Assembly: GCA_030068145.1 (NCBI GenBank)
Contig: JAPJBO010000367.1
Coordinates: 124,001 to 188,000 of the forward strand
Direction: 5' to 3'
Source: Diplonema papillatum
Lineage: Eukaryota; Euglenozoa; Diplonemea; Diplonemida; Diplonemidae
DNA length: 64,000 bases
Under the pieces are notes generated by a model. The model was not told the origin of the DNA. It ran no database searches and saw only the letters and a list, made by a program, of their open reading frames with translations. This document shows, in pieces, positions 12,701 through 64,000 of this stretch. The stretch's first letter is position 1; each line of letters starts with the position of its first letter. A program made the position numbers and the translations under genes.

Positions 12701-15700
12701 CCCGAACCGCTGACAGCAGTCTTCTTCGACGGCGGCTCGCGGAACAACGGGACGCGTGGGGCCGTTTCGGGTGCAGGAGCCGTATACTACCTCGCGGGGA
12801 AGAAACAATGGGAGATTTGTGCCCCGATCGAAGAGCGAGCGACAAACAACGTCGCGGAGTACACGGCTCTGATCAAGGCACTGCACCGACTCCAAGACCA
12901 GCCAGGGCTGAGCGGAGAGCTGGTTGTTCGGGGGGACAGCGGACTTGTCGTTGACCAGATGACAGGAAACGCGCGCTGTTCCGAAGCTCTGCGACCGTAC
13001 AAGACGAGGGCGCAGGCAGAGGTGGCGGAACTGCGGCAGAAAGGCATCGACATCAGGTTGGAGCACGTGCCGCGCGAGCAGAATATCGACGCCGATGCTC
13101 TATCGAATCGTGCGATGGATGAAGTCCAGAGACGAGCGACAGCCGAGTATCGGGACTCGGCGACCGCGAAATCGTACGCGATGAAGAGCGCGATGCGACG
13201 GCTGACGAGTATCGTGCAGACGCCGATTCACCCGGCGCTTGAGATGCAAGTCAACGTCCTGACGTCTCTCGGAGGCGGAAACATGGCCGGACTCAACAAG
13301 AGGCCACAGATGGCGAGCCAGCAGGCGTTTGAAGCCGTGATGCGCGCCTACGAAGCCGCCGCACGAGAGCAGACGGCGAAGAAGGCCGGCGACAAGGTGC
13401 GAGCCATACCGCAGGCTGGGCTCCGCAAAGCTGCAACACTGAATGGCAGTTTTCGACCGCAGACGCACTACCCGTCGGGATGGGAGCGCAAGCAGGCTCG
13501 ATGGAAGCACGAGGTCAAGCAGGAGAGACGAACTGCGCAGACTGAGCGCAAGACGTGCACCAAGGGCAGACCAGGACGTTGGGACCGTGCGAAGTCGAAG
13601 AAGGAGTCCAAAAGCGAAGCAACAACACCAACGCGGAAACGCAACCCGAAGGCAGCCAAGCGGACCTCCCAGGGCAGGGGGGAACCTGCGGCAGTGAAGT
13701 AACGAAGCTCATCCGAGTGTCCGATGAAACCCCTTGTCAATACCACCCAACGACTGCGACGCGCGTGCGAAATGTCGGACGTTAGCGTCTGTCAAGAGCA
13801 TGCGCGACTCAGCCGTGTTTTAAAGGTGAGATGAGAGGCATCGGCTCACTCTGTCAAAGGACCATACCACTATTCAAGCTAGTCAAACACTTTCTGGCCT
13901 CCAGCGGGAAACCCAGACTTCAAAACGACAAGATCGGCTGTGTTCAGCCGTAGATAGCCACCAGCGGGTCCTCTTGAAGCCGAAGAATGCTCTCGGGGGT
14001 CACAGTTAGCCCCATGTGTGCAGCGCCAGCAGTGGGCAGGCACACGCTCAGAATGTGTGGTATGCAAGTGCACCCTGCCTAGAATCCGGCTTCACCCGCT
14101 TTTGAGAACACAGTGCTTACAAGGAAAACGCAGAATATAAGGTGGAAAAATTCAAAAGAACCAAGATGAGGACTGTGGGCCCCCCCGCCAACGCCAATCT
14201 CGGCAGCCTTTCCCCGGTTCTTTCAGAGATTGTCACCACCATTCCAACAGCCCTGTACCGGGCACGTGCCCAGTCCAAACCGCTCACGATGCGTCGCCGG
14301 CTCGCCTCGTCGTCAAGGCTGTTGAAGGCTTCTGAAAGCCTACCAGAAAGGCGCTTCCAGATGTCAACGTTCTCCTCCTCTGTCATTAGGGCGAGAAAGA
14401 AACCGATCAGGTCCTCACCAGACCCCCCTCAGGTGCTGACACCACTGTAGTATCTTTATCCATACTTCAACCTACTCGTTCTGTGAAGTGTATTTCTCCC
14501 GACAGGTCCCGACGATGAAGGGAGGCACGACGAATGGGTCGATGATAGACAAGATCCTCCGCGGGCAAGAGATCGCGCGTGAGAACCGGCTCATGACGGT
14601 GTCCCTCACGCAGAGCGGCGGCGCCGATCTGCGGCAGCAGGAGCGCGTGTTCCACGCCGGCGGGCGCAGCTTCGCGAACCAGGCCCGCGCCTCGAAGGCC
14701 GGCGACACGAGCGTTTCGGTGGTGTTCGGCCCCTGCACCGCGGGCGGCGCCTATCAGCCGGGCATGTCCGACTACAACGTGTTCGTGAAGGACGCGGCCG
14801 CGTACCTGGGCGGACCCCCCCTCGTCAAGATGGCCACCGGCGAAGTCGCCACGGACGAGGAGCTCGGCGGCGTGCTGATGCACAGCGTCCTCGACGAGCG
14901 CCACGCTATCCGCGTCGCGCGCGAGTTGGTCGCGGCGCAGGAAGCTCACGCCAGACAATGTAGTCTATTCATGACAAGCAACTACATGTAAAAGGTGTCA
15001 CGGTATAAGCCGGCAGCCGCTGCTTAACGGCAGTGCATGCTGACCCATGTGGTCCATGTACTTAAAAGCTCCCAGTGCAGTAGCCCTGAGATTACCCCCT
15101 CAGGTGACACCACTGTATTAGCTATAACCATACTTCAACTTACTTTGTTCTGTGAACAGCTGCGCCTCAACTGTATTTCTCCCGACAGGTCCCGACGATG
15201 AAGGGAGGCACGACGAATGGGTCGATGATAGACAAGATCCTCCGCGGGCAAGAGATCGCGCGTGAGAACCGGCTCATGACGGTGTCCCTCACGCAGAGCG
15301 GCGGCGCCGATCTGCGGCAGCAGGAGCGCGTGTTCCACGCCGGCGGGCGCAGCTTCGCGAACCAGGCCCGCGCCTCGAAGGCCGGCGACACGAGCGTTTC
15401 GGTGGTGTTCGGCCCCTGCACCGCGGGCGGCGCCTATCAGCCGGGCATGTCCGACTACAACGTGTTCGTGAAGGACAGCGCGGCCGCGTACCTGGGCGGA
15501 CCCCCCCTCGTCAAGATGGCCACCGGCGAAGTCGCCACGGACGAGGAGCTCGGCGGCGCGCTGATGCACAGCGTCAAGAGCGGCGTCTCCGACTTCTTCG
15601 CCCTCGACGAGCGCCACGCCATCCGCGTCGCGCGCGAGTTGGTCGCGGCGCAGCACCGCCGGAAATTCACGCCGTATCCCAGGGCGCACCTCGCCTCCGC

Positions 15701-16499
15701 CGTCGAGCCTCCCGCATACCCCGCAGAGGAGCTGCTCGGCGTCTTCGACGGCGTCCTCAAGCAAGCGTTCGACATCTCCGAAGTCATCGCCCGTGTGGTC
15801 GACGGGAGCCGGCTGACCTTCTTCAAGCCGGAGTACGGGAAAACGACCGTCTGCGCCTTCGGCCAAATCCACGGGTTCCCGGTCGGGTTCATCGGCAACA
15901 ACGGTGTGCTGATGCCGGACTCGACGCACAAAGCCACGCAGTTCATTCACCGGTGCAACATCGAAGGCAAACCCATCGTGTTCCTGCACAACATCACCGG
16001 GTTCATGGTGGGCACTGAATCCGAGCAAGCTGGGCTCATCAAACACGGGTCCCTGCTGATCAACGCTGTTTCCAACTGCGTTGTGCCCATCATCACGATC
16101 ATGGTGGGTGCCTCTTACGGTGCCGGCAACTACGCGATGGCTGGCAAAGCGTACAACCCTCGCTTCATCTTCTCGTGGCCCTCCAGCAAGTGCGGCGTCA
16201 TGGGGCCGGAGCAGCTTTCTGGCGTGCTGGACATCGTGCAGAGGCGAGGGTTTGACAAGAAGAAGGCCGCAATGACCGCGAAGCAGGTGGCTGCCGCCGA
16301 AAACCGGTTCGTCGCGACCAGGGAGGGCTTCCGGAAGCAGGTCGAGATGACGACGGACGTCTACTACGTCTCTTCGCGCGCCATCGATGACGGCGTGATA
16401 GACCCGAGGGATACGCGCAACGTCCTGGCGTTCACGCTGTCCGTCATTTACAACGCCGACGTCGTTTCTGGAGGGGTTTGGGGCGTCTCGCGCATGTGA
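3717..16499 (+). CDS. MCCC2: Methylcrotonoyl-CoA carboxylase beta (carboxyltransferase) subunit, four exons
   Basis: The product is the carboxyltransferase half of biotin-dependent 3-methylcrotonyl-CoA carboxylase, which acts in leucine breakdown, normally in mitochondria. Exons 3717-3803, 4900-4970, 5430-5598 and 15189-16499 join in frame (1,638 nt) to a 545-residue protein, close to the family length. Exon 1 encodes the N-terminal KENHAKMM segment, exon 2 the helix before KRGQLPARERLD, exon 3 the DEDSPFLEL block, and exon 4 the rest, including CTAGGAYQPGMSDYN, KSGVSDFFA, GNNGVL, NITGFMVG, GASYGAGNYAM and the MGPEQ motif. Donors are GTATGC, GTATGC and GTATGT. No clear mitochondrial presequence is visible, so an upstream exon or another location is possible. 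Intron 3 is 9.6 kb and holds a complete LINE and a damaged copy of the exon 4 start. A propionyl-CoA carboxylase paralogue is less likely from the motif pattern. Confidence 0.93.
3866..4020 (+). repeat. Interspersed repeat family D copy in MCCC2 intron 1
   Basis: Contains TGCTAACAATCTTGCGGG, a pyrimidine-containing stretch and TTGTGCAG, that is, a branch-point-like TNCTAAC followed by a good 3' splice site, then CTAAAAAGACGTAG. Other copies, same orientation, lie at 24,845-24,995 and 45,068-45,265. Confidence 0.75.
4020..4720 (-). other. Intron sequence with an open minus-strand frame of unknown nature
   Basis: Inside MCCC2 intron 1, 4,091-4,675 is open for 194 codons on the minus strand. 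The protein is Ser-rich, and a 33-bp direct repeat (about 4,417-4,482) gives two acidic SEEDVDGD units. The ATGGCTGAGCTGCTCAAGTC segment at about 4,110 recurs near 45,270, next to a family D copy, so part of this belongs to an interspersed repeat. I see no known domain, and it may be a transposon relic rather than a gene. Confidence 0.3.
5200..5429 (+). repeat. 77-78-bp tandem repeat reaching the 3' splice site of MCCC2 intron 2
   Basis: Units start AACAAGTCCAGGG at about 5,207, 5,284 and 5,361 (period 77-78 bp). The last, partial unit carries CACTCAGTCTTCACTGCACACAG and ends at the acceptor of exon 3. The equivalent part of the complete units (CACTCAGCCTCCACTGTGTACC) resembles a decayed acceptor. 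Confidence 0.75.
5613..5785 (+). repeat. Interspersed repeat family A copy just inside MCCC2 intron 3
   Basis: It starts 15-20 nt after the donor of exon 3 (TTTGTATGAGCACC) and includes the family A core GGAGGTAAATGTGCTG, CACAGGTAAATCTGGGTTTA and GGCGTAAGCGTTCAACAAA. It carries an internal insert with a TCATCGGCATGCCG palindrome, also seen in the copy near 36,018. About 13 family A copies occur in the window, all in this orientation. Confidence 0.8.
6274..6292. repeat. Left target-site duplication of the full-length LINE
   Basis: CCACTATTCAAGCTAGTCA is repeated exactly at 13,867-13,885. The 7.6 kb between the two copies is the retrotransposon, so this is a 19-bp target-site duplication. Confidence 0.93.
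6333..8105 (+). CDS. LINE ORF1 (Gag-like nucleic-acid-binding protein)
   Basis: ORF1 encodes 590 residues from the first ATG inside the element (MSAPPSGG); an in-frame ATG at 6123 lies outside the target duplication and is host flank. ORF1 proteins of LINEs bind the element RNA and form the retrotransposition particle. The central 350 residues show two weakly repeated alpha/beta-looking segments but no motif I can name with confidence. A heptad-patterned helix (MEELRAQLKEALRQIEDL, about residues 480-500) should form a coiled coil, and a Lys/Arg-rich C-terminus follows. The stop is TAA at 8,103-8,105, and the ORF2 frame is open beneath the last 415 nt. Confidence 0.88.
   Translation: MSAPPSGGPGQRVDSDETMRPTQTKAEAPWQWVPAKKSKQHAELRSEDWDVPVVDVQALQGCIVGVAIASRAETKKAYGGGVRKGACAMVVLGAVPELAGLKGHTSPVVIRRGTRVETTTGTLFQLGEKPVSSKLTMREAPMPDAREWDDTHRLSVHVPRQYTTPGEWEEATSNLRAYLQRFAGEAGVDGRAIGITGVETRGRAEDPARSIGALLRVTGEQAKTLEAASGHRGVFVRDKKDAGPIVWLAANTTLPEARELARRLQARRLAANRRGLGLRVAPEAEERVRTAVGEKAVPKRNGMPWDVYGFAKRTTAAQAEAFLRTAGWEGVTAIKVIPKRGRVLAVVRGTEPPSWVFGVTGGGTRIEVSSARPISETEQRWVQAAAPEKRRDPAEVGSVREQERYTWAEFLSCYGKRKGIERWREAGKQLPEGGSAAKGLSGGKKGSPMKGGKGGKDFNIESATGPAGPNPAGTPEATEMEELRAQLKEALRQIEDLTKRLAEVQTKQAGAQKSPSPRRQPSADREEGKTKKTKGTKPGGQKTGAKKRARSGTESASQERNEAKPPAKMQNSAASMTKKSDRQTWSEEGT
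7946..7952 (+). promoter_or_regulatory. Possible -1 ribosomal slippery site between ORF1 and ORF2
   Basis: In the ORF1 frame the bases read G GGG GGC, which fits the X XXY YYZ pattern for -1 frameshifting. ORF2 is in the -1 frame relative to ORF1 and stays open from 7,691 onward. I did not identify a downstream pseudoknot. Reinitiation at ATG 8144, 39 nt after the ORF1 stop, is an alternative. Confidence 0.3.
8144..13702 (+). CDS. LINE ORF2: OTU protease, AP endonuclease, reverse transcriptase, zinc finger, RNase H
   Basis: 1,852 residues from ATG 8144. Domains in order: OTU-like cysteine protease (residues about 8-130; GDGNCQF with the catalytic Cys, and HYDRL with the His); Pro/Gln-rich linker with a 51-bp duplication; AP-type endonuclease (about 215-460; VNVTSY, QELRLD, LILGDFN, RIDLVLAN, THHAIV); reverse transcriptase (about 740-1060; GAEGWRVHE, LRPISV, LSVDYEKCFDRLP, GILQGCPLS, and FLDD as the catalytic motif in place of the common FADD); zinc-binding CKYC...HHMWWDC (about 1324-1345); RNase H (about 1520-1665; FFDGGS, NNVAEYTAL, RGDSGLVV, NIDADALSN) with all four acidic residues. 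The C-terminal 180 residues are basic. The protein makes and inserts cDNA by target-primed reverse transcription; the OTU domain presumably trims proteins or ubiquitin. No stops or frameshifts are seen. Confidence 0.96.
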   Translation: MERTARGMCARYIQVPGDGNCQFTAIADSYGGIDAGALRERVVRDIEANTARYYDYLGGEEMGQYLQRMETDRTYGDELTLNAAAQVLKCNIWVVNAAHRGVIKRWRSDGADRTLVITYQPLHYDRLQLPLQSLQLLEQADTNTVPLARLLIAQRRTPPPNRQPHPCHEKSTSQPRQPPQTLPSQRSSTSQPRQPPQTLPSQRSRRTTTRPRGISVATVNVTSYRKHYLDVATLDADFIAMQELRLDAPSAKVYEQLVRKELGGRLCTAKPQPTTKAARGGTQTAPGGVGFYIRAGEGKVWIPGKDHELERTLWDTGRWHHVATPIGGGRNMLHMMTVYGHAGKQESRESLFERVFEAASALGSVPTLILGDFNTTVETSRTLRAATSIGQWTDVAHHVAMRNGTSPAKTCWQAEGGTRIDLVLANEAAMQAVESVEVVEVKPIPTHHAIVVRMNLERFQDRQRTMVGPAAFPRRMPNLSEEDERSLAEETLAKTRDKLARALARKAVEETWRLASGPAEEYLARRSEKLEKKFTGRTRETKIQSRPTAAPQGRRTGVAASVEERSTSRLLRQLQAIAADGENGPASMQTDRMRKRRWEKAKRIGTRLMAEGPYKEVWGRPSPPVGADLMHMMEGLIGCQGKLAEKVRDARVREWRDRMQLAVKTRPGRIFSWLKQEDRKQVNFIKDEDGNVTWNPEEMDRILRGPNAWGGVFQRHFRNSAPRWDDFKEQFEASIKRTEPVALAPITKGDLLKTLTKLGKETAPGAEGWRVHELAALPDEAIERFAQLFRVVEETGRWPRTLLTALITLIPKNEGETGPMNLRPISVTSAVYRLWAATRLRMLGEWVCQWIPDGVRGAVPLRGADDVMFEVALRIEHAIECGRPLYGLSVDYEKCFDRLPHDIMFRLVEYMGIDKGVLRALRGVYSAIRRHFKTAGGIGEAFNAANGILQGCPLSVLLLNALVAVWIRAVEVLGSEEEVVRALAFLDDTQAMTSDKKQFKAATQTTTRFANAADLGVGAAKSYWYTTCESRERAVKVQGKTIERQQAFDVLGTMLSVSQGSPKPSKRIKGRHEKAQAIARRARHLPVPMEERERYVAAAATTKALYGTAVWQPPKKYVQALMRATMAGIWSGSPRRNGAIVLNVLCRGHRLDPASVVLHRRLLTLGQQLGRRPRLRRLAEEVRAIRREREERGEINAKKKGPVALFQEAVEEVGWTWTELGRLRDPAQPEEWNLFCDTDAEDRGAKRRAAVARDEFQHAVREAVRTSRYAKIVRGQFEGIIHGIDGPATRRLLTEGGLTGYQQGLVRAVITNAVLTGKRLGHDVCKYCDAGVPEDEHHMWWDCTRWTAIRNEYPHLVASLPNMPKCLALCGVVPKQAQHDQAADMAGSIQLMCARILLDRQKVEGLVEKDCRRKEFSVDTYPWGWCPKPPTAVYPIDVQGARPSTTAWPDSQEMLVAMAKWSSSKRWAEQGGDASATFFELAIDFELFSGLTLTPLKTRRREKRNTEEREKQWLARDELPEPLTAVFFDGGSRNNGTRGAVSGAGAVYYLAGKKQWEICAPIEERATNNVAEYTALIKALHRLQDQPGLSGELVVRGDSGLVVDQMTGNARCSEALRPYKTRAQAEVAELRQKGIDIRLEHVPREQNIDADALSNRAMDEVQRRATAEYRDSATAKSYAMKSAMRRLTSIVQTPIHPALEMQVNVLTSLGGGNMAGLNKRPQMASQQAFEAVMRAYEAAAREQTAKKAGDKVRAIPQAGLRKAATLNGSFRPQTHYPSGWERKQARWKHEVKQERRTAQTERKTCTKGRPGRWDRAKSKKESKSEATTPTRKRNPKAAKRTSQGRGEPAAVK
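8653..8754 (+). repeat. 51-bp in-frame tandem duplication in the ORF2 linker
   Basis: The 51-bp unit starting GTCGACCTCGCAGCCACGGC occurs at 8,653 and again at 8,704, giving two 17-residue SQPRQPPQTLPSQRS-type repeats between the OTU and endonuclease domains. The copies are near identical, so the duplication is recent. Confidence 0.85.
13867..13885. repeat. Right target-site duplication of the full-length LINE
   Basis: Exact second copy of the 19-bp sequence at 6,274-6,292. Confidence 0.93.
13886..14423. other. Remainder of MCCC2 intron 3, no feature recognised
   Basis: Host intron sequence between the LINE and the duplicated exon. Short open frames on both strands (about 90-100 codons) have no protein character I recognise. 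Confidence 0.4.
14424..14990 (+). pseudogene. Defective tandem copy of the MCCC2 intron 3 end and exon 4 start
   Basis: Sequence equivalent to 15,100-15,650, including the acceptor TCTCCCGACAG at 14,505 and the first 430 nt of exon 4, is repeated here at an offset of 683 bp. Compared with the real exon it lacks one codon in VKDSAAAYL and 27 nt encoding KSGVSDFFA. It then runs out of homology after AARELVAAQ-type sequence into unrelated DNA and a stop at about 14,989. Because acceptor and frame are intact, splicing exon 3 to it would give a truncated subunit without the second half of the active site. Confidence 0.85.
14993..15135 (+). repeat. Unoccupied copy of the LINE-2 target repeat, with terminal inverted octamers
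   Basis: GGTGTCAC at 14,993-15,000 is the reverse complement of GTGACACC at about 15,103-15,110, so this 118-bp unit can fold back. Inside it lies GTGCATGCTGACCCATGTGG...TACTTAAAAG, related to the sequence flanking both LINE-2 copies. The part after CCCTGAGATTACCCCCTCAG matches 785-830. Confidence 0.6.
15189..16499 (+). CDS. MCCC2: MCCC2 exon 4 (last exon)
   Basis: This exon carries most of the carboxyltransferase fold. It begins at GTC after an acceptor ending TCTCCCGACAG and ends at the TGA at 16,497-16,499. Both oxyanion-type glycine motifs are present: GGAY in the first half and GASYGAGNY in the second. Its first 450 nt exist as a second, defective copy 683 bp upstream, and its last codons are the start of a 120-bp tandem repeat array. 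Confidence 0.93.
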   Translation, partial: VPTMKGGTTNGSMIDKILRGQEIARENRLMTVSLTQSGGADLRQQERVFHAGGRSFANQARASKAGDTSVSVVFGPCTAGGAYQPGMSDYNVFVKDSAAAYLGGPPLVKMATGEVATDEELGGALMHSVKSGVSDFFALDERHAIRVARELVAAQHRRKFTPYPRAHLASAVEPPAYPAEELLGVFDGVLKQAFDISEVIARVVDGSRLTFFKPEYGKTTVCAFGQIHGFPVGFIGNNGVLMPDSTHKATQFIHRCNIEGKPIVFLHNITGFMVGTESEQAGLIKHGSLLINAVSNCVVPIITIMVGASYGAGNYAMAGKAYNPRFIFSWPSSKCGVMGPEQLSGVLDIVQRRGFDKKKAAMTAKQVAAAENRFVATREGFRKQVEMTTDVYYVSSRAIDDGVIDPRDTRNVLAFTLSVIYNADVVSGGVWGVSRM

Positions 16500-16855
16500 T
16501 GACCAGATTGCATCTGGGCAACCTCAACTTTCTGCGCTCGCGTTGAGACGTGCGAGATGCGACGTGCTCCTCTCTTCTCGACGGAACCAGTCTCCTGAAC
16601 TGTTCGAAGACGCATGTGATGACCAGATCGCATTTGGGCAGCATCAAACCTTTCTGCGCTCGCATTGAGGCGTGCGAGATGCGACGTGCTCCTCTCTTCT
16701 CGACGGAACCAGTCTCCTGAACTGTTCGAAGACGCATGTGATGACCGGATCGCATTTGGGCAGCATCAAACCTTTCTGCGCTCGCATTGAGACGTGCGAG
16801 ATGCGACGTGCTCCCTTCTCGACGGAACCAGTCTCCCCTGAACTGTTCGAAGACC
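16494..16855 (+). repeat. Three 119-121-bp tandem repeats covering the MCCC2 stop codon and 3' UTR
   Basis: Units start at GCATGTGATGACCAG (about 16,494, 16,613, 16,734) and end GAACTGTTCGAAGAC. The first unit overlaps the last codon and stop of MCCC2. An AATAAA lies at about 17,004 and could serve as the polyadenylation signal. Confidence 0.85.
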
Positions 16856-40752: not shown

Positions 40753-42453
40753 TTGTTCGTACGTGCACTTCCGCACCTCCTCTGTACACCGCAATTGTGC
40801 GTGCAGTTGAGCCACGGGTACATGGTACTGCCCTCGCTGGGCTTGCACGCGTTTTTCCAAGGGATGCGTGCTGTTCGCGAGTTGAACCTGAATCGTTGGG
40901 CACACCGCCTCCGGGCGTTCTTTTTTGTTCGAGTTTTTGCAATTCGAGTGTCACCAGTCGCTGGGGCCATCGCGGAAGGGGGGGAGGGGTACCAGGGCGA
41001 AATGCTCGAAGACGGCGCCAACGCGCTGCTGGACCCCGCCCACACAGTAGAGACGCGGGAGGACTTTGCGAAGCTTTTCTCGGTCCCCCCGGTGAAGCAG
41101 TACAGAGCGGGCGACGACCCCGCGGCCGGCAGCGCACCCGACGGGGCAGGGGCCAGCCGGTTCGGCTCCGGCGCCGACGAGGCAGTGCAGCAGGCGCGAG
41201 CCAGCCTGCTCCTCGAGTGCCTAGACGACCAGAGGTCGGCCCGGTTCGACGTGCTGACCAGCCCCGTTCCCCTGCGGATCCTCCACGATCCGGACCGGGA
41301 AACACCTGAGTACACGCGCGCCTGCGACGAACCGATTTCCGACGACATTTTCACGGCGCCCGCTCCCCCGTGCGCTAGCGCCCAACCGGAGCCGAGCCCC
41401 GCGGAAGGGGATGGTGTGAGCACCGTGGATGACAATGCGAGCACGGTGTCCGTTGGGGGTGCGACGACAGCGTCGCTGTTGGACGGAGCGCACGCCGAGC
41501 TCCAAAGGGACGTGCAGTTCGACAACTTCGTGGACCCGGAGGAAAGCCTCGACCCCGACGACGTCTCGGATCTCGACAACGCGGAGTGGCACCACGTTTC
41601 GGGGCCCCGCCAGCCCCAAGAGGAGGCGCCGCCCGCCGAAGCCGCCGCCCTGTGCGGTGTGCAAGCCCTCAACCGCGACCGCGGGACGCTGCGGTCCGCG
41701 TTGGACACCGAGCCGGCGGAGAACAAACCGTTCATCGGACCGGCGAAGCCCGCTCCAAAACTAGGGTACTCGCACGCGCCCGTGGCGGCGGCGGTGAGCG
41801 GGGCCGACCGGAGGATCCGGACGTGGCTGGGGAGGGTGCAGAGCGCCGCGCTGCCGCCTGGTTGGAAGGTCGACGCGTCGTCGATCAAATCGGTGCCGCC
41901 CGACGTGGAGGCCGACCGGCCGAGGGTGGAGGACGCCGTGCTGGCGGACGACGTGCAGCGGCTGCACCACGCGCTGGTGTCCGGAGAGGAGGGCCTCCTC
42001 CGCAGCGAAGCCGAGCGCACCAATGGCCACATCGCGACCGACGCGGACTTGTACCTGAGCCACAAAGAGCGCCAGGCCGCGCAGGCCGAGCGCCCGGCCA
42101 ACCCCAACCCAGGCCCCAGCCCCGGGCAGCTGCAGCTGGCGGCCGCCAACGACGAGCTGTTCTCGTCGCTCAACGTCCCCGGCGCCGCGGCGTCGTCGCT
42201 GCACGAAGCGGTCTACAGCTGCCCCGTCGCGCGCGCGGTCGTCGACGAGCACACGGCGGACCTCGCAACGGCGCGGGGCGGCGAAGCCGCCGAAGCATCG
42301 CCCGATCCTCCGGCCCCGCCGGCGGCGGGTACCGCGCCGCCGGACGCGACGACGTGGCACGAGGAAACAGAGCCGTTTGCGCTGGATCCCGACTTCGACT
42401 ACGACAACATCGTGAACCCAACCCCGAAGCCCAGGACGCCGTGGGAGGTTTAG
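40753..42453 (+). CDS. Unrecognised acidic, Pro/Ala-rich protein (3' exon)
   Basis: 566 open codons; the first part may be reached by an acceptor at about 40,806 (GTGCGTGCAG). The N-terminal 70 residues are hydrophobic or amphipathic (LSHGYMVLPSLGLHAFF...). The rest is acidic with several segments that look conserved: FDVLTSPVPLRILHDPDRE, VQFDNFVDPEESLDPDD, and FALDPDFDYDNIVNP near the C-terminus. The D-N-[FI]-V-[DN]-P pattern occurs twice and may be a short binding motif. No known domain seen. The end of this exon plus 3' UTR is repeated in tandem downstream. Confidence 0.55.
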   Translation: MFVRALPHLLCTPQLCVQLSHGYMVLPSLGLHAFFQGMRAVRELNLNRWAHRLRAFFFVRVFAIRVSPVAGAIAEGGEGYQGEMLEDGANALLDPAHTVETREDFAKLFSVPPVKQYRAGDDPAAGSAPDGAGASRFGSGADEAVQQARASLLLECLDDQRSARFDVLTSPVPLRILHDPDRETPEYTRACDEPISDDIFTAPAPPCASAQPEPSPAEGDGVSTVDDNASTVSVGGATTASLLDGAHAELQRDVQFDNFVDPEESLDPDDVSDLDNAEWHHVSGPRQPQEEAPPAEAAALCGVQALNRDRGTLRSALDTEPAENKPFIGPAKPAPKLGYSHAPVAAAVSGADRRIRTWLGRVQSAALPPGWKVDASSIKSVPPDVEADRPRVEDAVLADDVQRLHHALVSGEEGLLRSEAERTNGHIATDADLYLSHKERQAAQAERPANPNPGPSPGQLQLAAANDELFSSLNVPGAAASSLHEAVYSCPVARAVVDEHTADLATARGGEAAEASPDPPAPPAAGTAPPDATTWHEETEPFALDPDFDYDNIVNPTPKPRTPWEV

Positions 42454-42619
42454 CCCGTGCTGGCGCGATCAGAGCCGTCTTCGTTTTCCTCGAAGCCAAC
42501 AGCCGCGGCAGTTTAGGGGTCGTTTGCACAGACTACGAGTCAACACCACGATTGGACTTCATCGAGCCCGGGCCGCTAGAGATTCCGCTTTCCTGAGGTA
42601 GACTCCAAGTCAACGGCGG

Positions 42620-43640
42620 CAAAGCTGCAATCGGTCGTCGCTCAACGTCCCCGGCGCCGCGGCGCCGTCGCTGCACGAAGCGGTCTACAGCTGCCCCGTC
42701 GCGCGCGCGCTCGTCGACGAGCACACGGCGGACCTCGCAACGGTGCGGGGCGGCGAAGCCGCCGAAGCATCGCCCGATCCTCCGGCCTGGGTATTGTGCC
42801 GCCGGACGCGACGACGTGGCACGAGAAAACAGAGCCGTTTGCGCTGGATCCCGACTTCGACTACGACAACATCGTGAACCCACCAGGACGCCGTGGGAGG
42901 TTTAGCCCGTGCTGGCGCGAACAGCGCCGTCTTCGTTTTCCTCGAAGCCAACGGCCGCGGCAGTTTAGGGGTCGTTTGCACAGACTACGAGTCAACACCA
43001 CGATTGGACTCCATCGAGCCCGGGCCGCTAGAGATTCCGCTTTCCTGAGGTAGACTCCAAGTCAACGGCGGCAATGCTGCAATCGGTCGTCGCTCAACGT
43101 CCCCGGCGCCGCGGCGCCGTCGCTGCACGAAGCGGTCTACAGCTGCCCCGTCGCGCGCTCGTCGACGAGCACACGGCGGACCTCGCAACGGCGCGGGGCG
43201 GCGAAGCCGTCGAAGGGCTGCCGGATCCTCCGGCCCCGTCGGCGGCGGGTACCGTGCCGCGGGATGCGACGAGATAACGGAGCCGTTTGCGCTGGATCCC
43301 GGCTTCGACTACGACAACATCGTGAACCCAACCCCGAAGCCCAGGACGCCGTGGGAGGTTTAGCCCGTGCTGGCGCGATCAGAGCCACCTTTGTTTTCCT
43401 GGAGTGGATTCGAAGCCAACAGCCGCTGCAGTTTAGAGGTCGTTTGCATAGAACCCCACAATTCGACACCACTGAGCGCGGGACGCTAGGGCTTCCGCTT
43501 TCCTGAGGTAGACTCCAAGTCGACAGCGGCAACGCTGCAGTTTAGTGGCTGTTTTCACAAACCTTGAGGCAACTGATTCGACTTCAACGAGCCCAGGACG
43601 CGAGGGAATCCAGCGTTCCTGAAGTAGACTCGAAGTCAAC
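42620..43640 (+). pseudogene. Two to three decaying tandem copies of the 3' end of the preceding gene
   Basis: The segment starting TCGCTCAACGTCCCCGGCGC (42,165 in the parent) recurs at 42,637 and 43,088, with offsets of about 471 and 450 bp. Each unit ends in the same 3' UTR sequence (TTTCCTGAGGTAGACTCCAA at about 42,590, 43,043, 43,500), and a shorter remnant ends near 43,635. The second copy has an indel after the SPDPPA codons and a shifted frame; the third lacks part of the TWHEETE region. These are fragments without the N-terminal part. Confidence 0.85.
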
Positions 43641-47900: not shown

Positions 47901-49216
47901 TTCCTTGGCAGGTGGTGACGACGACGTCCTTGTTGAGCATGATCCCGACGTCGTTCACGACGTGCTACACGCACCACTTGAACGGTAACGTTGCGCTTCG
48001 ACTGGCGCCGGGACTCGTGATGGGGACCATCGTCGGCGCCTTCACCGGCTCGCGGCTGATGGCGTTCACGACCGAAATCGTGCGGAAGACGTCGTGCGCC
48101 GGGGTCCTGATGTTCACGGCGTGCATCATGCTGTACCAAGGGATGGGGAAGTACTTCGCCGGCGAAAAAAGCTCGACTTTCCAGTTTTTGCGGCTCGCCG
48201 GCGCGACCATCTTCTTCCTGAGCCTCGGGACGGTCGTGACCGAAAAGGTCTTCAACCGCCCCGACGCCGCCCACGAGTACATGCTGACCTTTTCCCAGAA
48301 GCTGCTGATCAGCCTGTTCGCCGCGTACGACCTGCGGTTCGGGCGCAAGGCGCTCCATTCGTCGCCGACGGCGTCGTCGCAGGCGACGATCCCGCAGAAG
48401 GACGAATCGCTGGGCGACCGAAAGCCGCCGGTCCTTGTGTACCTGGGCCTCGCCGCGTTGCTGTCGACTGCCGCGTTTGCGACGGGCATCGCGTCGAAGC
48501 TGCTCGACTTCTCGACGCAGGCCGCGCTGAAGAGCGCGAAGCTGCCGCTGATGATGGTTTGGCGCCTCGCGTTCCTGCAGACCGCCCGCCGGCCGAGCCT
48601 CGCGGAGTGGGTCTGCGGGCTGGGTGTGGCGGTTGGCTTCGCTATGGTGTGCACGGCGGGCGCCACGGTTGAGAAGGGGTTGACCACCGACGACGCCGCC
48701 CAGGGGGTGCTCCTGCTCATCATCGCGCTCGCTGCGGACGCGTCTCTGTACGCACTCGAGGAAGGCGTCGTCTTCGGGAAGTACAAAGCCGACAAGGTCG
48801 AGGCGATGCTGTACATCTCGACGCTGTCCCTCCCGTTCTGGTTCGCGATGCTCGTGCACAGCGGCGCGCTCTCGCTCGCGAGCATGTGGACCATCGAATG
48901 GAAGTTCCCCACCATCGTCATCGCCTCCGCGGCGGCGCACTACATCGGTGCGAAGCACTTGCTGCAGATCGTGCAAGAGTACGACGCGAACATGGCCATC
49001 TTCGCCACAACCTTCAACAAGCTGGTGTCTGTCATCATCTCCTTCTCGCTGTTTCCAGCTCCCGTGACCCTGATGCACGTCGTCGGCATCGTCGTCATGG
49101 GTTTCTTCTCATACGGCTTCATCACAAGATCCGACTTGACTCCGGCTAAAGACAAACTCGCCAAAATCGAAGCTGACTTAGAAAGTGGCGCACCGCCCAA
49201 CGACCAGCTGCGATAG
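44950..49216 (+). CDS. Fused transporter: TauE/SafE-type exporter joined to a UAA/SLC35B-type transporter
   Basis: Exons 44950-45047, 45851-46164 and 47263-49216 join in frame (at least 787 residues); the 5' end is not found. Exon 2 holds the first TauE/SafE repeat (GFLTGFLGSMAGVGGGPF, VPLLGWLLG). The junction gives VFGYISAKMSNSMSP-VVL, the usual end of that repeat. About 130 soluble residues follow (GHWSYTLEDKDG to SETG). The second TauE repeat is GTASGLLGIAGGSVVVPL. From about 48,180 a full set of membrane segments matches the UAA family (SLC35B1-B3 type): TQAALKSAKLPLMMVW, the AADASLYALEEGV helix and AHYIGAKHLLQIVQEYD. TauE/SafE proteins export sulfite or organosulfonates; SLC35B2/B3 carry PAPS. 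A sulfur-linked function is attractive but inferred. Introns start GTATGT. Confidence 0.85.
45048..45850 (+). repeat. Transporter intron with families D and B
   Basis: The family D copy (45,068-45,265, TAGTACTAACAATCTTG) starts about 20 nt after the GTATGT donor and has an internal 32-bp duplication (GAATTCCTTACCTGAATACA). A copy of the ATGGCTGAGCTGCTCAAGTC segment (45,271) and a partial family B (45,411-45,490) follow. Confidence 0.75.
46165..47262 (+). repeat. Transporter intron made of families B, C and three A copies
   Basis: B 46,210-46,385; C 46,382-46,500; A 46,562-46,790; two further near-identical A units at about 46,870-47,035 and 47,075-47,230 (tandem). All sense. GGTAT is repeated at the two intron ends (46,164-46,168; 47,262-47,266). 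Confidence 0.85.
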
Positions 49217-49515
49217 ACCGTGGCTTCCGAGAGGGGGTTTCGGCATTGTTGTCATGGACCTCTTCTCGTCCGGCTTCACCACAAGATCCGACTTGATTCC
49301 GGCCAAAGACAAACTCGCCAAACCAACCTCTAAGCTGACCTGACCATCTGCGATAGACCGCGGCTTCCGCATTTCGGCTTTGTCATCGCGTGGCGCCTCA
49401 TTCCATGACCAGCTGCGATGGACCACGTTTTCATCAGTCGAGATAAACTTGCAAAAACTCTACGCTGATGCGCAAACCCGAGATCTCCATCTGCGCTAGA
49501 CCACGGTTTCCGCCA
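49085..49515 (+). repeat. Decaying tandem copies of the transporter gene 3' end
   Basis: The last coding codons (GGCATCGTCGTCATGG..., CAAGATCCGACTTGACTCCG) recur from 49,241 at an offset of 157 bp. The 3' UTR motif CAGCTGCGATAGACCG recurs in altered form at about 49,345, 49,410 and 49,490. Confidence 0.8.
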
Positions 49516-57309: not shown

Positions 57310-58190
57310 CTCCCTCAGTGATGACACAACCGTCGCAGAGAAAACAGGCCAGTGGCACGAACGTAATGAGAGCGATCACACCGTCGCACAGAAGGGTAAT
57401 GACAGAGCCCGCTCGCGCAGAAAGTAGGCCGGCGGCACGTGATGAGAGTGATCGCACAGCCGTCACAGAGAAAGATGGGCCAGCGGCACGAACGTGATGA
57501 GAGTGATCGCACAGCCGTCACAGAGAAAGATGGGCCAGCGGCACGAACGTGATGAGAGTGATCACACAGCCGTCACAGAGAAAGATGGGCCAGCGGCACG
57601 AACGTGATGAGAGTGATCACACAGCCGTCACAGAGAAAGATGGGCCAGCGGCACGAACGTGATGAGAGTGATCACACAGCCGTCACAGAGAAAGATGGGC
57701 CAGCGGCACGAACGTGATGAGAGTGATCACACAGCCGTCACAGAGAAAGATGGGCCAGCGGCACGAACGTGATGAGAGTGATCACACAGCCGTCACAGAG
57801 AAAGATGGGCCAGCGGCACGAACGTGATGAGAGTGATCACACAGCCGTCACAGAGAAAGATGGGCCAGCGGCACGAACGTGATGAGAGTGATCACACAGT
57901 CGCACAGAAGGGTAATGACACAGCCCGCTCGCGCAGAAAGTAGGCCGGCGGCACGTGATGAGAGTGATCGACACAACTGTCACAGCGAAAGCGGGCCAGA
58001 GGCACGAGCTGATGAGAGTGATCACACCGTCGCATAGAAGAGTAATGACAGATCCCGTTCGCACAGAAGGTATGCCAGCGCTGTCGCAAAGAAGAGTAAT
58101 GACAGAACCACGTCACACAGAAAGACCACCGGCATGCGATGAGAGTGATCACAACGTCTACAGATAGAAGGGCAATGACGGAACCGTCCA
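57310..58190. repeat. 55-bp minisatellite
   Basis: The unit GCACGAACGTGATGAGAGTG...GATGGGCCAGCG repeats with an exact 55-bp period (57,541, 57,596, 57,651 and so on). About eight near-perfect units run to about 57,890, with diverged units on both sides. 55 is not a multiple of 3 and the units hold stops, so it is non-coding. It ends 120 bp before the next gene start. Confidence 0.93.
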
Positions 58191-58313: not shown

Positions 58314-59225
58314 ATGCAAGAAGCGACGCCGACCTTCCGGAAGGAGTGGCTAGCAGGAGCCGGCGGCGCCGGGGACGGGCGGCGCGTGACAGTGAACGAC
58401 CTGACGCAGCGCTTCATGACGGGCCGGTCGCACACGGCGTGCATCACGATGGTGCCGGGCGCGTGGGAAGCGTGCAAGAGCAACGCGGAGAAGAAGCAGG
58501 TGCTGTCGATCGCGGTGCAGTGCCTCTGGGACCTCGACAAGACGGCCGCCGCGGGCCTGCTGCCGAAGTGTTACGGCGCCACGTCCACGAAGCTATCCCT
58601 GCCGCTGGACCTGGTCAGACTGCAAGCGAAACTCCTCGTAGCGCAGCAGCACCACGACGAGGCGAAGAAGCTTTGCGTGGCGTACCTCGCTGCGAGCAAA
58701 GCCGAGCCAACGGCGTCGTCTCTCGACTTGCTCGAGGTTTTCGTCACCGAAGTCCTCTCGCCGGCGGAGGCCGTGAAGTCGCTGGACGTGCAGTACTTGT
58801 CGTACCTCATCGTCGACCCGACGCGGGTCGAAAACTTACGCTCAACCGTCAAAGCGCGGGAAGCCGAAGCCTCGGCCGGCTCCAGCGGCAGCCACCGCCG
58901 CCGCGCCGCGACCCGGTCCGCCGATCAATCGACGCGGAAGCCGTCGCCCCCGCCGCCGAACGGCCAGCTTGCTGCGGCAGCGCCGGCCCCGCCTGCGTCC
59001 CACGCGGTGGCGGCAGCCTCCACGCAGCCCGAAAACCGGTCGCGCGTCGTCGCCGCGCCGGCGTCGGGCCTGGTGCTGTGGGGCAGCCAGCTGCTGGCTT
59101 CGTCGGCCGAGGCGTTGGGGCTCTCGAAGCAGGCGGTGGCGTCCCTCACCGCAGCGGTGCTGCTTACCGTCGTCGTCCTCTTGAGCCGCAGGCGCGTCTC
59201 GGCGCGGCACACCATCCAGCTCTAG
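58314..59225 (+). CDS. Tail-anchored helical protein, candidate PEX26/APEM9-like peroxisome factor
   Basis: 303 residues from ATG 58314, single exon. Residues about 25-190 look all-helical (LSIAVQCLWDLDKT, RLQAKLLVAQQHHDEAKKLC, LLEVFVTEVLSPAEAV). A Ser/Pro/Ala-rich linker (about 190-265) follows, then one hydrophobic helix (SLTAAVLLTVVVLLS, about 277-291) and a short basic end (RRRVSARHTIQL). Length, helical N-domain, linker and tail anchor with basic C-terminus match PEX26, which docks the PEX1/PEX6 ATPase on peroxisomes; sequence similarity is only suggestive. Other TPR-like tail-anchored proteins (FIS1-like) are possible. The C-terminal half and 3' flank are duplicated directly downstream. 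Confidence 0.6.
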   Translation: MQEATPTFRKEWLAGAGGAGDGRRVTVNDLTQRFMTGRSHTACITMVPGAWEACKSNAEKKQVLSIAVQCLWDLDKTAAAGLLPKCYGATSTKLSLPLDLVRLQAKLLVAQQHHDEAKKLCVAYLAASKAEPTASSLDLLEVFVTEVLSPAEAVKSLDVQYLSYLIVDPTRVENLRSTVKAREAEASAGSSGSHRRRAATRSADQSTRKPSPPPPNGQLAAAAPAPPASHAVAAASTQPENRSRVVAAPASGLVLWGSQLLASSAEALGLSKQAVASLTAAVLLTVVVLLSRRRVSARHTIQL

Positions 59226-59460
59226 CCGCGCCGGGCGGCCTCAACCACGTTTGTTGGTTGGTAACAGGACAGACAGTTTCCGTTTGTTGGTTGGTCACAC
59301 GGCAAACGGTTTCCGGCTCTCTTGTTCTCTTCCGATTGCAATTCTCTGCGGAAGCGACTGCAGCATCAGTCAGGCCGTGGAAGGCACTGGTGATGTGGAT
59401 CCACCAACTGCACACATTCACCCAGCGTACAGCTGGCACTGGCGAGAGCTGTTGCTTACT

Positions 59461-59938
59461 TGAGGTTTTTGTCACCAAAGTCCTCTCGCCGGCGGAGGCG
59501 GCGCAAAGTCGCTGGACGTACCTCACCGTCGACCGGACGCGGGTCAAAAACCTGCACGCAGCCAGTCAAGCGCGGGAAGCCGAAGCCTCGGCCGGCTCCA
59601 GCGGCAGCCACCGCCGCCGCGCCGCGATCCGGTCCGCCGATCAATCGACGCGGAAGCCGTCGCCCCCGCCGCCGAACGGCCAGCTTGCTGCGGCAGCGCC
59701 GGCCCCGCCTGCGTCCCACGCGGTGGCGGCAGCCTCCACGCAGCCCGAAAACCGGTCGCGCGTCGTCGCCGCGCCGGCGTCGGGCCTGGTGCTGTGGGGC
59801 AGCCAGCTGCTGGCTTCGTCGGCCGAGGCGTTGGGGCTCTCGAAGCAGGCGGTGGCGTCCCTCACCGCAGCGGTGCTGCTCACCGTCGTCGTCCTGTTGA
59901 GCAGGCGCGTCTCGGCGCGGCAAACCATACAGTTGTAG
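59461..59938 (+). pseudogene. Tandem copy of the C-terminal half of the tail-anchored gene
   Basis: Begins at LEVFVTKVLSPAEAA (parent: LLEVFVTEVLSPAEAV), offset 727 bp, and keeps the frame through the linker, the membrane helix and a TAG at 59,936-59,938. It lacks the N-terminal half. The sequence between copies (59,226-59,460, with TTGTTGGTTGGTAACAGGAC) recurs after the second copy at 59,945-60,145, so the unit includes 3' flank. Confidence 0.88.
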
Positions 59939-60424
59939 CCGCGCCCGGCCTCGACCAACAGACGGGTTCCGTCTGTTGGTTGGTAACAGGACAGACGGGT
60001 TTCGGCTCTTTGTTCTTCTCCGATCGCATGTATCTGCGATTCGCAGGCCGGGGCAAGGCACTGGTAATGTGGTCACCAGCTGCATACATTCGACTGAAAA
60101 TGAAGCCCGCGTACAGCTGGCACTGGCTCGGCGGGAGCTATTGCCAAATACACGCGTGGACACAGTTGTGCCGTGGCGGTGAAGGCCCGCTGCACGGGCG
60201 GTTCCAACGCCCGCTTTAGCTCCCCCGTGCAGTTTTCCCCCGTGCGGTACCCCCCAGCACGCTTCGAACATAACTCGAACACAACGGCGTCGGGGCCTTC
60301 AACCTGGCGACAGGTTGCAGGGAAAAGCCACGCCGCACCGTGCCCGCTGCCTGTGAGTGATGGGGCTGGCTGCTGTGGGATACGATAGGGCGCACGCCGT
60401 CTGGCAGAGCCGCGGGTTGATCTC

Positions 60425-60699: not shown

Positions 60700-62330
60700 A
60701 AATATCAAGGCACGGGGAACGCTTCCCCTGAACTACGAGTCTGCGAGCCAAGGAACTACCACCACAGACGGCTATCGGCAGAATGGATGGGCCCTGAGCT
60801 TGAACCGACTCTAGTTACGAACGCACTACGCCCTTTGCGACGACTCTGCGTACGATTCTCTGTGTCTCTCGTATGAAACTGCGAGAGGCAAGAACCAGTA
60901 TTGTAGAGACTCCCAACCATCAGAAGCTCCGGGCACGGCCGTCGCGATGCGGCATTGCAGGTGCTTCTCTTCGTCTTTGTGTGACTGCGAGTGAAAAACG
61001 GGTTGGCGATGAGACTCCAGCGATCCGTGTCGGCTGCTTTTGGCGGAGCACGTGGCATACTGCCATGCTCACGTACGACGAGGCTGTCATTTTGGGGCAC
61101 CAAAAGGACCCGATACCCTTGGCAATGAACTGATTCCATTTGTGCTTCCTTGTTGATCCCGGATACAAATCCAAGTTATTTGATGACTTGACTCTGCACG
61201 CTTAACACGCGTTGGCGGATATCTAGCCATCCCTTGTTCTAAAAAATGGAGGGTCGTGTTGGGAACATTATTGGAGTTGCGGTCATGCGGTGACAAACAA
61301 AACGGCCGGCGATCGGCATGAATGTGTCGGGAGGAAAAAGGGCCTCCGTGGATTCGTTCAACATTCTTATGTGCAGCCGTTGTCCCCTTCAGTACAATGA
61401 TGTTTTTAAGAGACTCGTGTCTCCGAAGACTACCACCGCCACCGAAATACGACCAAACGGACAGAAACAGACTATGATCATGCAACGATGCTTTTGCGGT
61501 CGCCGGAGGGCTCTTAAAGAAATTGGAAACTTCAGCCGAACTTTCACTCTCCAGAGAGAGCCACGAACGCAACGAGGCGCGCCACCACAGAGTGCCAAAC
61601 AGAGAAAAATAAGAGGGGGGTTAGCCTCCTGGCTTTTCCGTCTCCCCCACTTCCTCCCTGCTTGCTTCTTTGTCTTCAGAGGTCTGGTGGCACCGCTTGG
61701 CAGCTTCCTTGAGTCCGCCTTTCGCCGTCCTTTCATGCAAGCGCACGACACACTAGAGTGAGCTAGCCGCACCAACCTGCGCGGCAGGGAGTGGAGACGA
61801 GGTGATGCAAGACGAAGGGGAAGCGCGAAGCGACCAGCCCGGACGGACCAGCAAGACGCAAGACCAGGCGACGAAGAGAAGGAGGGGGACGCGACCCTCG
61901 AGAGACCCGGGCTAAGTAGCCTGGAGCTAGTGTGATGGACCCTTCTTCGGAGGGGCTCACGCACTCAAAGTTCGACTTATACGCACACACCTGCGCAACC
62001 TTCCGCCGGTCGGAGCGGCTAGTTTCACGCGTGTAAACGTGAAGACCCGCCTAGTGCAGGGTCTTCTTTTCAGAGAAGTCGTAGTGTCGTCTGAGTAAAC
62101 CGGAGCAGCATTGCCATTCTCGAAGCCATGTGCTATGACTCGGTCGACCTGTTTCATCCACGCCGCCGCGCCGAGCGTTGGTTCTTATCTCGGTCAATCG
62201 TATCCACCTCGACCCCGCGGTTGATAGACCCATGCAACAACGTGAACCTGAAACACGAAATGGTTGGATCCCTCCGACGCTTGGGTCATTAGGTTTTCGA
62301 GGCGGCTAGGGAAACGTGTGGGCAAGGCAA
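60700..62330. other. Intergenic, no gene recognised
   Basis: Only overlapping short frames. GAACTTTCACTCTCCAG at about 61,540 is a variant of the TTCACTCTAAAA motif seen near other repeats. Confidence 0.35.
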
Positions 62331-62414
62331 TGGCGGTTACGCGTTGTTGGTGTTCAAAGGAACAAACCACCACACCACCCAGGGTAGAGGACAAGGGAGG
62401 GGTGGAGGCCAATC

Positions 62415-62708
62415 ATGGCGAACCAAGGGATCGTGCGGCACCTCAACGACCTGAAGAAGAGGGTGCCGGACCGGATGGTCAGGAAGCGGCTGTCGCAGGC
62501 TGTCGAGTCGATCTCGAAGTACCCGCTGCCCATCGAAAGCGGCGCGAAGGCGCGCGACCTCAAGGAGTGGATCGCGACGCGCATAGACCAGCACCTCCGC
62601 AGCGAGCTGCACACCGGCGTGGCCCCGTCGGCGACGTCCCTCATCAAGGCCCACGCGGTCCTCTCGCAGACCGTCGAGCCGCTGTCGCAGCGCTCGGCTT
62701 GGGGTTAG
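62415..62708 (+). pseudogene. First tandem copy of the 5' end of an HhH/SAP gene
   Basis: 97 codons: the helix-hairpin-helix region, ending in a new stop (SQRSAWG). A 9-nt deletion replaces LNGVGEW by LKEW, removing the GVG hairpin that contacts DNA. It carries its own copy of about 75 bp of 5' flank (CCACCACACCACCCAGGG). Confidence 0.8.
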
Positions 62709-62833
62709 GTTTCCTAGGCCGAAAGCGTCTGGCTGAGGAAACGTGCCGGTGCGCTTTGTAAAAATACTTTCGTCAAAGGAACACACCACCACACCACCCA
62801 GGGCAGAGGACAAGGGAGGGGTGGAGGCCAATC

Positions 62834-63136
62834 ATGGCGAACCAAGGGATCGTGCGGCACCTCAACGACCTGAAGAAGAGGGTGCCGGACCGGATGGTCA
62901 GGAAGCGGCTGTCGCAGGCGGTCGAGTCGATCTCGAAGTACCCGCTGCCCATCGAAAGCGGCGCGAAGGCGCGCGACCTGAACGGCGTCGGCGAATGGAT
63001 CGCGACGCGCATAGACGAGTACCTCCGCAGCGAGCTGCACACCGGCGCGGCCCCGTCGGCGACGTCCCTCATCAAGGCCCACGCCGTCCTCTCGCAGACC
63101 GTCGAGCCGCTGTCGCAGCGCTCGGCTTGGGGTTAG
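62834..63136 (+). pseudogene. Second tandem copy of the 5' end of an HhH/SAP gene
   Basis: 100 codons with the hairpin LNGVGEW intact but the same early stop after SQRSAWG. It is offset 419 bp from the first copy and 428 bp from the third. It could make an isolated HhH peptide if expressed. Confidence 0.8.
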
Positions 63137-63261
63137 GTTTCCTAGGCCGAAAGCGTCTGGCTGAGGAAACGTGCCGGTGCGCTTTGTAAAAATACTTTCG
63201 TCAAAGGAACACACCACCACACCACCCAGGGCAGAGGACAAGGGAGGGGTGGAGGCCAATC

Positions 63262-64000
63262 ATGGCGAACCAAGGGATCGTGCGGCACCTCAACGACCTG
63301 AAGAAGAGGGTGCCGGACCGGATGGTCAGGAAGCGGCTGTCGCAGGCTGTCGAGTCGATCTCGAAGTACCCGCTGCCCATCGAAAGCGGCGCGAAGGCGC
63401 GCGACCTGAACGGCGTCGGCGAATGGATCGCGACGCGCATAGACGAGCACCTCCGCAGCGAGCTGCACACCGGCGCGGCCCCGTCGGCGACGTCCCTCAT
63501 CAAGGCCCACGCCGTCCTCTCGCAGACCGTCGAGCCGCTGTCGCAGCGCCCAGCTTCATCCGGCGGCGGGGGCGCCGCAGCGAAAACCCCAGCGGGTAGG
63601 GCCCCCACGCAGAGGGCGAAGCCCGCCAAAGGAGGGGGCGGCGGCGGCGTCGTGCGGCCTGAGTCCGCTTCGTCTTCCGCCGCCTCTTCTTCTTCTTCTT
63701 TGGCGTTTGAAACGTTCACGCTGAACCAGCTGCGCGTCTTCTGCAAGAGCAAAGGCGTGGCCACCAGCGGCTCGAAACCGGAGCTCTTGAAGCGGTGCGT
63801 GGCCTACCAGCAGCCGGCGACGAGCGGGCCGTCGCCCCCGTCGACCCGCCCCGCGGCGCTGCACTTCGACGCTGAGTTGACAGCCGCGGACCCAGCGAAC
63901 ACACACCGTCCAGGCTCCGCGCCGCCTGAGGGTGCGCAAGACGCCGTGTCGAAGCTGACGGCCTCGAAGCTGCGAGTGGCGCTCGCCCGGTTGAACCTCG
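63262..64000 (+). CDS. MUS81: HhH and SAP domain protein, MUS81-like (continues past the window end)
   Basis: Third and only continuing copy. Residues about 5-70 form a helix-hairpin-helix domain (SISKYPLPIESGAKARDLNG then VGEWIATRIDEHL), best matching the N-terminus of MUS81, the nuclease subunit that cuts branched DNA. DNA polymerase X enzymes share this fold, with YPxxIxSGxEA. After a Gly/Pro/Ser-rich linker comes a SAP DNA-binding motif (LNQLRVFCKSKGVATSGSKP, about residues 150-180), and another begins at the window edge (KLTASKLRVALARLNL). The nuclease domain would lie beyond 64,000, so the name is provisional. SAP motifs are unusual for MUS81. Confidence 0.6.
   Translation, partial: MANQGIVRHLNDLKKRVPDRMVRKRLSQAVESISKYPLPIESGAKARDLNGVGEWIATRIDEHLRSELHTGAAPSATSLIKAHAVLSQTVEPLSQRPASSGGGGAAAKTPAGRAPTQRAKPAKGGGGGGVVRPESASSSAASSSSSLAFETFTLNQLRVFCKSKGVATSGSKPELLKRCVAYQQPATSGPSPPSTRPAALHFDAELTAADPANTHRPGSAPPEGAQDAVSKLTASKLRVALARLNL

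Follow-up and report, generated by a model that had tools for sequence, protein, structure and literature searches.

Partial tandem copies of gene ends in a 64-kb window and in a random genome sample of Diplonema papillatum

Introduction

The available text of the genome paper on the diplonemid Diplonema papillatum describes, for 'dozens' of gene models, 'repeat-bounded gene structures' in which part of the 5' untranslated region (UTR) and coding sequence (CDS) stands in tandem upstream of the gene, or the 3' end of an exon is repeated into an intron or the 3' UTR (Valach et al. 2023, PMC10161547). The array described there at SufC has a unit of about 400 bp in 12–13 copies, is supported by PacBio reads and, according to RNA sequencing (RNA-seq), is not in mature mRNA. 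The same source reports 5' UTRs of about 70 bp, unidirectional gene clusters that are likely co-transcribed, a spliced leader on essentially all mRNAs, and a full set of RNA interference (RNAi) genes, including Dicer-like and Argonaute. In Drosophila, small tandem duplications, including ones covering UTRs, are described as arising often and being filtered by selection (PMC6380325, available text). The present analysis concerns tandem partial copies of gene ends in one stretch of the D. papillatum genome, a window of 64,000 nucleotides (GenBank assembly GCA_030068145.1, contig JAPJBO010000367.1, positions 124,001 to 188,000, forward strand), and in a random sample of the same assembly.

A first-pass annotation of the window had claimed that five genes carry tandem copies of their own ends. 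Self-comparison of the window recovered all five, and shuffled sequence gave no arrays. The annotation had further supposed a recurrent process at gene ends. Such a process, at gene or exon ends, is supported beyond the window, where 11 of 16 long-unit arrays in 25 random stretches straddle a coding edge, a count taken from a sample and not from the whole genome.

Methods

The assembly to which the window belongs has 2,910 contigs and totals 271 Mb, against 280 Mb published for the genome (PMC10161547, available text). Tandem arrays within it were detected by self-comparison with self-BLAST and Tandem Repeats Finder (TRF). Of 160 random positions drawn by script, the first 25 gave the survey sample, as stretches of 10 kb each (250 kb in total); these stretches, labelled L0xx, came from contigs 1–340, the longer ones. 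Window and random stretches together amount to 314 kb. Coding sequence was called with a model of seven states, which was self-trained starting from four genes of the window and then applied to 26 sequences, the window included. Arrays with a base period below 150 bp were left out of the survey, the composite array of L023 was divided by hand, and hand-made tables give the coding and non-coding length of each unit. The null test consisted of 20,000 random placements of those tandem arrays that had a unit length of at least 250 bp, excluding L035, which holds a whole-gene array of histone genes.

In the real 314 kb, 54 tandem arrays were detected, against none in three dinucleotide shuffles at equal thresholds. 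SufC, at C37:309421–310137, served as a positive control for the published array. Within 6.6 kb around its start, an array 5' of the gene (C37:304026–309538) showed 13 successive shifts of 358–476 bp and ended within the CDS at 309538. A 22-mer from the diplonemid spliced leader had 608 exact matches in the assembly and none inside the window itself; its reversed control had 0.

Results

Arrays at coding edges in the random stretches

The 25 random stretches contained 16 tandem arrays whose unit was 250 bp or longer. Eleven of these straddled an edge between coding and non-coding sequence, compared with 3.15 expected (P=1.5×10⁻⁴), or 3.94 expected when placement was kept within each array's own stretch (P=2×10⁻⁴). 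Non-coding arrays were scarce, with four observed and 10.4 expected (P=1×10⁻³). The direction was kept at stricter identity, with edge arrays making up 10 of 13 at ≥80 % and five of six at ≥88 % (P=0.0035), and also when each gene was counted once (8 of 13, P=1.1×10⁻³).

This scarcity bears on plain survivorship, by which duplications are spread evenly, those that destroy genes are removed, and copies at gene ends are conspicuous because their coding sequence is noticed and the parent half is conserved. Mainly non-coding long-unit arrays are predicted under such a scheme, and these were the class in deficit. Setting the 10 edge arrays of ≥80 % identity against the four non-coding arrays of any identity still gave P=2.3×10⁻⁴.

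Edge arrays touched eight of 37 gene-like clusters (22 %). With gene totals of 42 and 29, which are estimates by eye and from published gene density, the 95 % intervals were 10–33 % and 15–46 %, respectively.

Arrays of five genes in the window

The arrays of the five window genes and the MCCC2 parent are as follows.

14424..14952, + strand: MCCC2 upstream copy, comprising the 5' part of the large exon, ~95 bp of intron and the 3' splice site
15095..16499, + strand: MCCC2 parent, large exon with the end of the preceding intron (Pfam, whole-genome search)
16491..16854, + strand: MCCC2 3' end array, 3.0 copies of ~120 bp, from the last two codons and stop (TRF, self-BLAST)
42163..43539, + strand: 3' end of the 40.7-kb gene, three copies of 472, 452 and 453 bp (self-BLAST)
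49083..49513, + strand: 3' end of the TauE-UAA transporter gene, decaying copies with a 157-bp shift (self-BLAST)
58727..60144, + strand: 3' half of the tail-anchored gene (CDS 58314–59225), two copies with a 728-bp shift (self-BLAST)
62279..63556, + strand: 5' end of the HhH/SAP gene, three copies with a 418–428-bp shift (TRF, self-BLAST)

MCCC2 carries two arrays, one at an exon start and one at the gene's 3' end. BLAST matched 14424–14940 of the upstream copy with 15095–15653 of the parent, and alignment by eye extended to ~14952 and 15660; unit lengths here depend on how the 143-bp spacer is treated. The copy has deletions of 3 bp and 27 bp, and its open reading frame (ORF) still matches Pfam Carboxyl_trans (E=1.1×10⁻²⁵), compared with E=1×10⁻¹⁰⁰ across 15156–16496 in the parent. 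The label 'exon 4' given to this exon in the first-pass annotation was not confirmed: a search at E≤0.5 did not find positions 1–60 of the carboxyltransferase domain on the contig.

In the 40.7-kb gene the parent unit comprises 291 coding and 181 non-coding bp, and an older 104-bp repeat follows the copies and reaches 43640. The longest frame of this gene has a single weak Pfam match, under its cut-off. The TauE-UAA array has an overall identity of 66.7 %, its best piece being 88 % alike over 83 bp. The parent ORF matches Pfam UAA and TauE; the TauE/SafE and UAA transporter domains share one open frame of 676 codons (47186–49213), by impression an unusual-looking fusion. The copies of the tail-anchored gene, which has no Pfam match, retain a clean core of 252 bp within a diverged unit. 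The third HhH/SAP copy (ATG at 63262) runs on into the gene, which matches Pfam HHH_8 and SAP; its sequence matches among solved structures are to DNA polymerase beta and MUS81, in their HhH domains.

As the first-pass annotation had stated, the copies include non-coding flank: intron, upstream flank and 3' flank are all present in them. This indicates that copying took place at the DNA level and that the copies are not derived from cDNA. A DNA search of the 271-Mb assembly with the 5' segment of HhH/SAP returned its three tandem copies and no others. Retrocopies of mRNA were rejected on these grounds, intron and upstream flank being copied and the tested segment lying only beside its parent. 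Dispersed gene fragments were likewise rejected for the HhH/SAP segment, which is found only in its own array.

Anatomy of the repeated units

Fifteen gene-end arrays, four from the window and 11 from the random stretches, were compared. Unit length ranged from 286 to 728 bp (median 469), with 172–500 bp coding and 88–323 bp non-coding. The coding share lay between 0.45 and 0.80 in all 15, a distribution that fits random breakpoints poorly (Kolmogorov–Smirnov P=0.003; P=0.016 for the 11 random arrays alone).

Arrays at both ends were found for genes in L013 and L028, for the cupin gene of L023 and for MCCC2 (exon start and gene 3' end). In the L023 gene (Pfam Cupin_5), one copy lies on the 3' side, a 116-bp array stands at the 5' end, and another three 5' copies show 99.8 % identity.

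Two genes, both from the random stretches, have inverted self-copies. The coding segment 4170–4378 of L013 recurs in inverted orientation at 5330–5528 (83.7 % over 209 aligned bp), in sequence flanking the 3' copy of the gene, and the source ends no more than 4 bp from the start of the direct unit (4374). Positions 4170–4917 of the same gene are self-complementary (67 % over the full length), so that the inverted piece also sits in the parent's own 3' flank. A transcript spanning both would therefore form a long hairpin, and the folding energy of the single strand 4160–4930 is −533 kcal/mol (z=−24 relative to 20 shuffles). In L023, 1839–2041, about half of it coding, is inverted at 3508–3707 (93 %). 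No inverted repeats of at least 60 bp within 4 kb were found in the window, and inverted repeats were rejected on this basis as a component of its own arrays.

The few junctions that were readable by eye showed 0–4 bp of shared sequence or short filler. Together with the inverted pieces they are compatible with template switching.

The same anatomy bears on whether copies are retained for a function, as extra trans-splice acceptors, as added 3'-UTR length or as a source of RNA for RNAi. All eight tabulated gene-start units of the 5' type, SufC included, carry at least 130 bp of upstream flank (a table made by hand, in which the L025 start at 8491 is an edge set by the coding model). Since 5' UTRs are ~70 bp long, this leaves room for an acceptor. 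Half of random breakpoints would yield equal flank, however, which makes the acceptor point weak. RNAi receives some encouragement from L013, one gene with a 209-aligned-bp inverted self-copy in its 3' flank, in an organism reported to have the full RNAi gene set (PMC10161547, available text). Against function, copy number and position differ from gene to gene, the copies decay without keeping a reading frame, and the published SufC array is absent from mature mRNA (PMC10161547, available text). Retention for function is judged improbable, although selection for spare trans-splice acceptors or UTR length is possible.

Divergence of the copies

Across 17 parent–copy alignments, coding parts differed by 0.3–7.4 % and non-coding parts by 0–21.5 %, while older copies were 66.7–75 % identical overall. 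These values also argue on the possibility that the repeats were made or miscounted when long and short reads were joined during assembly. Near-identity of some copies (99.8 % in L023) is what such an artefact could leave. Yet coding parts differ by 2.3–7.4 % in 12 of the 17 comparisons and carry indels in 13, which an assembler would not invent; PacBio support is published for one array (PMC10161547, available text), and that array, at SufC, was reproduced here. An assembly artefact is judged very improbable.

Fourteen of 34 coding indels in the copies were multiples of three, near the one third expected without regard to frame, and the claim of the first-pass annotation that deletions are often in frame was not borne out. 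The copies show no sign of being kept as protein, and selection preserving them as such was rejected on the same count. Coding parts differed less than non-coding parts in nine of the 17 comparisons, several by two-fold or more; this, like the lack of constraint on the copies, is in line with survivorship.

Differences were clustered beyond chance in five of the 17 comparisons (P=0.0002 to 0.040), among them the tail-anchored gene (P=2×10⁻⁴). The MCCC2 copy has 286 clean coding bases, yet 10 differences in the 95-bp intron edge. Patchy homogenisation by exchange with the parent likely lies behind the clustered differences, and gene conversion may have made the clean patches; the 12 unclustered comparisons require no homogenisation.

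A contrast by frame was found between arrays inside genes and arrays at their ends. Periods were in frame in six of six hand-listed coding-internal arrays (L018, window 29372, L025, L023, L030 and L035) compared with three of 15 gene-end arrays (Fisher P=0.0015). In this list, two L035 arrays of equal period were counted once, and the 48-bp array of L023, which the model calls non-coding, was included as sitting in a long open frame of 16-residue repeats. Left uncounted were a coding repeat of 3 bp in L032 and a 51-bp in-frame duplication in the window (8653–8754). Within genes, duplications that break the frame appear to be removed by selection, which seems to take no account of frame at gene ends.

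Other repeats in the window

Three window arrays lie away from coding edges (46505–47225, 55107–55557 and 57317–58185), and gene-end placement is an excess, not a rule. The last of these is a 55-bp minisatellite of ~8.6 near-identical units inside an older 130-bp repeat, and it stops ~130 bp 5' of the start codon of the tail-anchored gene. Related cysteine-rich units were seen at ~26.0, 28.7 and 29.4–29.7 kb (within 25978–29942), and among them 29372–29942 is a 189-bp in-frame tandem unit, 64 % alike. The 51-bp duplication at 8653–8754 is perfect, a multiple of three in length, and lies within a long open frame (7742–13702). The sequence at 20000–20400 (also 189–488) is a piece of a high-copy element with at least 41 matches, the others being 95–98 % alike among the 40 of 1375 candidates that were scored. 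A dispersed 164-bp repeat family has seven direct copies in 32 kb of the window, 63–85 % alike to the reference copy (self-comparison):

24571–24734, direct: 164-bp dispersed repeat
28160–28323, direct: 164-bp dispersed repeat
30523–30686, direct: 164-bp dispersed repeat
32268–32431, direct: 164-bp dispersed repeat
46569–46732, direct: 164-bp dispersed repeat
50304–50467, direct: 164-bp dispersed repeat
56414–56577, direct: 164-bp dispersed repeat

Discussion

Origin and survival of gene-end copies

The favoured explanation, with a probability of roughly 0.6, is frequent local tandem duplication of coding-rich DNA, in which selection lets events at gene ends survive and patches are sometimes homogenised. 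In this diplonemid genome, which is reportedly haploid, local tandem duplications with units of ~0.3–0.7 kb would be frequent in stretches containing coding sequence. If both ends of a duplication fell within the CDS, the gene would be destroyed unless the duplicated length were a multiple of three. One across a gene or exon end would leave an intact copy and so survive, visible as a partial copy that lies either upstream (5' type) or downstream (3' type). The spare copy would then decay free of coding constraint, and in some cases exchange with the parent could re-homogenise patches.

Survivorship is part of this explanation: it accounts for the restriction of observed coding-internal events to in-frame lengths, while those across gene ends occur in any frame, and the six listed internal arrays speak for it. 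Taken by itself it is unlikely, though it has more in its favour than the other alternatives. It leaves unexplained the scarcity of equally long non-coding arrays and the steady coding share, and a presumed duplication bias towards coding DNA was therefore added. Coding DNA itself would be more prone to duplication, and template switching may be the molecular step.

Several points weigh against the favoured explanation. Selection alone leaves the scarcity of equal-length non-coding arrays unexplained and a second factor has to be assumed, while the steady coding share of 45–80 % is incompletely explained even so. Clustering of differences was not significant in 12 of the 17 comparisons. The first-pass annotation had called for gene-end duplications to be counted against internal ones; in the sample the excess at edges held, whereas the deficit of purely coding-internal arrays was not significant (one of 16 compared with 2.4 expected, P=0.28), so that the selective filter rests on frame and not on count. 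The survey is small, with several arrays belonging to one gene, the coding caller was self-trained on the surveyed sequences themselves, and several tables, including the list of six coding-internal arrays, were made by hand.

Profile searches for two conserved gene families point the same way. For Cpn60/TCP1, 40 matches were sorted by eye into ~15 loci on 14 contigs, and their profile ranges overlapped by no more than a few positions, except in one whole-gene pair on C50. For proteasome subunits, 26 matches on 15 contigs included overlaps of 27–30 positions on two (C859 and C970), which may be partial copies or intron effects. Such searches are a poor count of end fragments, domain ends differing from gene ends, and the two families give no support for a frequency above that of the random sample.

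The first-pass annotation had offered template switching or slippage, or selection for spare promoters or terminators, as the mechanism. The former is consistent with the copying of intron and flank, the locality of the copies and the inverted pieces. The latter fared poorly: unidirectional, likely co-transcribed clusters and a spliced leader (PMC10161547, available text) suggest that single genes lack promoters of their own, which makes selection for spare promoters unlikely, and in the one published case, SufC, the array is indicated to be absent from mature mRNA.

A more far-reaching version of the favoured explanation holds that diplonemid coding DNA is itself especially liable to tandem duplications a few hundred bases long, leaving about a fifth of genes with end copies, and that some inverted copies could feed RNAi and silence the parent gene, as a self-made evolving silencing element. 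A few hundred bases correspond to about two to three nucleosome lengths. This version is regarded as speculative and improbable.

If about one in five genes in a very abundant group of marine protists carries such end scraps, gene models, RNA-seq mapping and copy counts would be systematically affected. The genome would also preserve a natural record of the places at which tandem duplications begin and of those that survive. Simple survivorship would not lead one to expect so few non-coding arrays of equal length, and a duplication bias towards coding DNA is directly testable with the published annotation of about 32,000 genes.

Comparison with known systems

Microhomology-mediated and fork-stalling template switching produces copies that are local, direct or inverted, and share little homology at their junctions. 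The direct and inverted local copies described here would fit this pattern.

The Drosophila duplications are polymorphisms, and those of 5' UTRs are described as less frequent than those of 3' UTRs (PMC6380325, available text). The copies in D. papillatum, in contrast, are a feature of the reference assembly, occur at both 5' and 3' ends and are often multi-copy. No protist precedent was found in the available parts of the literature on partial tandem duplication, and the accessible portion of PMC12621601 makes no mention of gene-end tandem copies.

The closest likeness is with the repeat-bounded gene structures. Like these, the degenerate terminal copies of the window adjoin their parent, and the genome is, to the extent tested, the same one. 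In the five window genes a terminal portion stands in tandem beside the gene, as it does in eight of 37 clusters of the random stretches, and the copies have degenerated to differing degrees, from coding differences of well under 1 % to the older copies described above. The kind is already in print, and the window contributes further members. Beyond the available text of that description (PMC10161547), a count against chance, arrays at both ends, inverted self-copies and the contrast in frame are added. What is new here is that gene-end copies were counted in a sample and are commoner at gene ends than chance placement would give.

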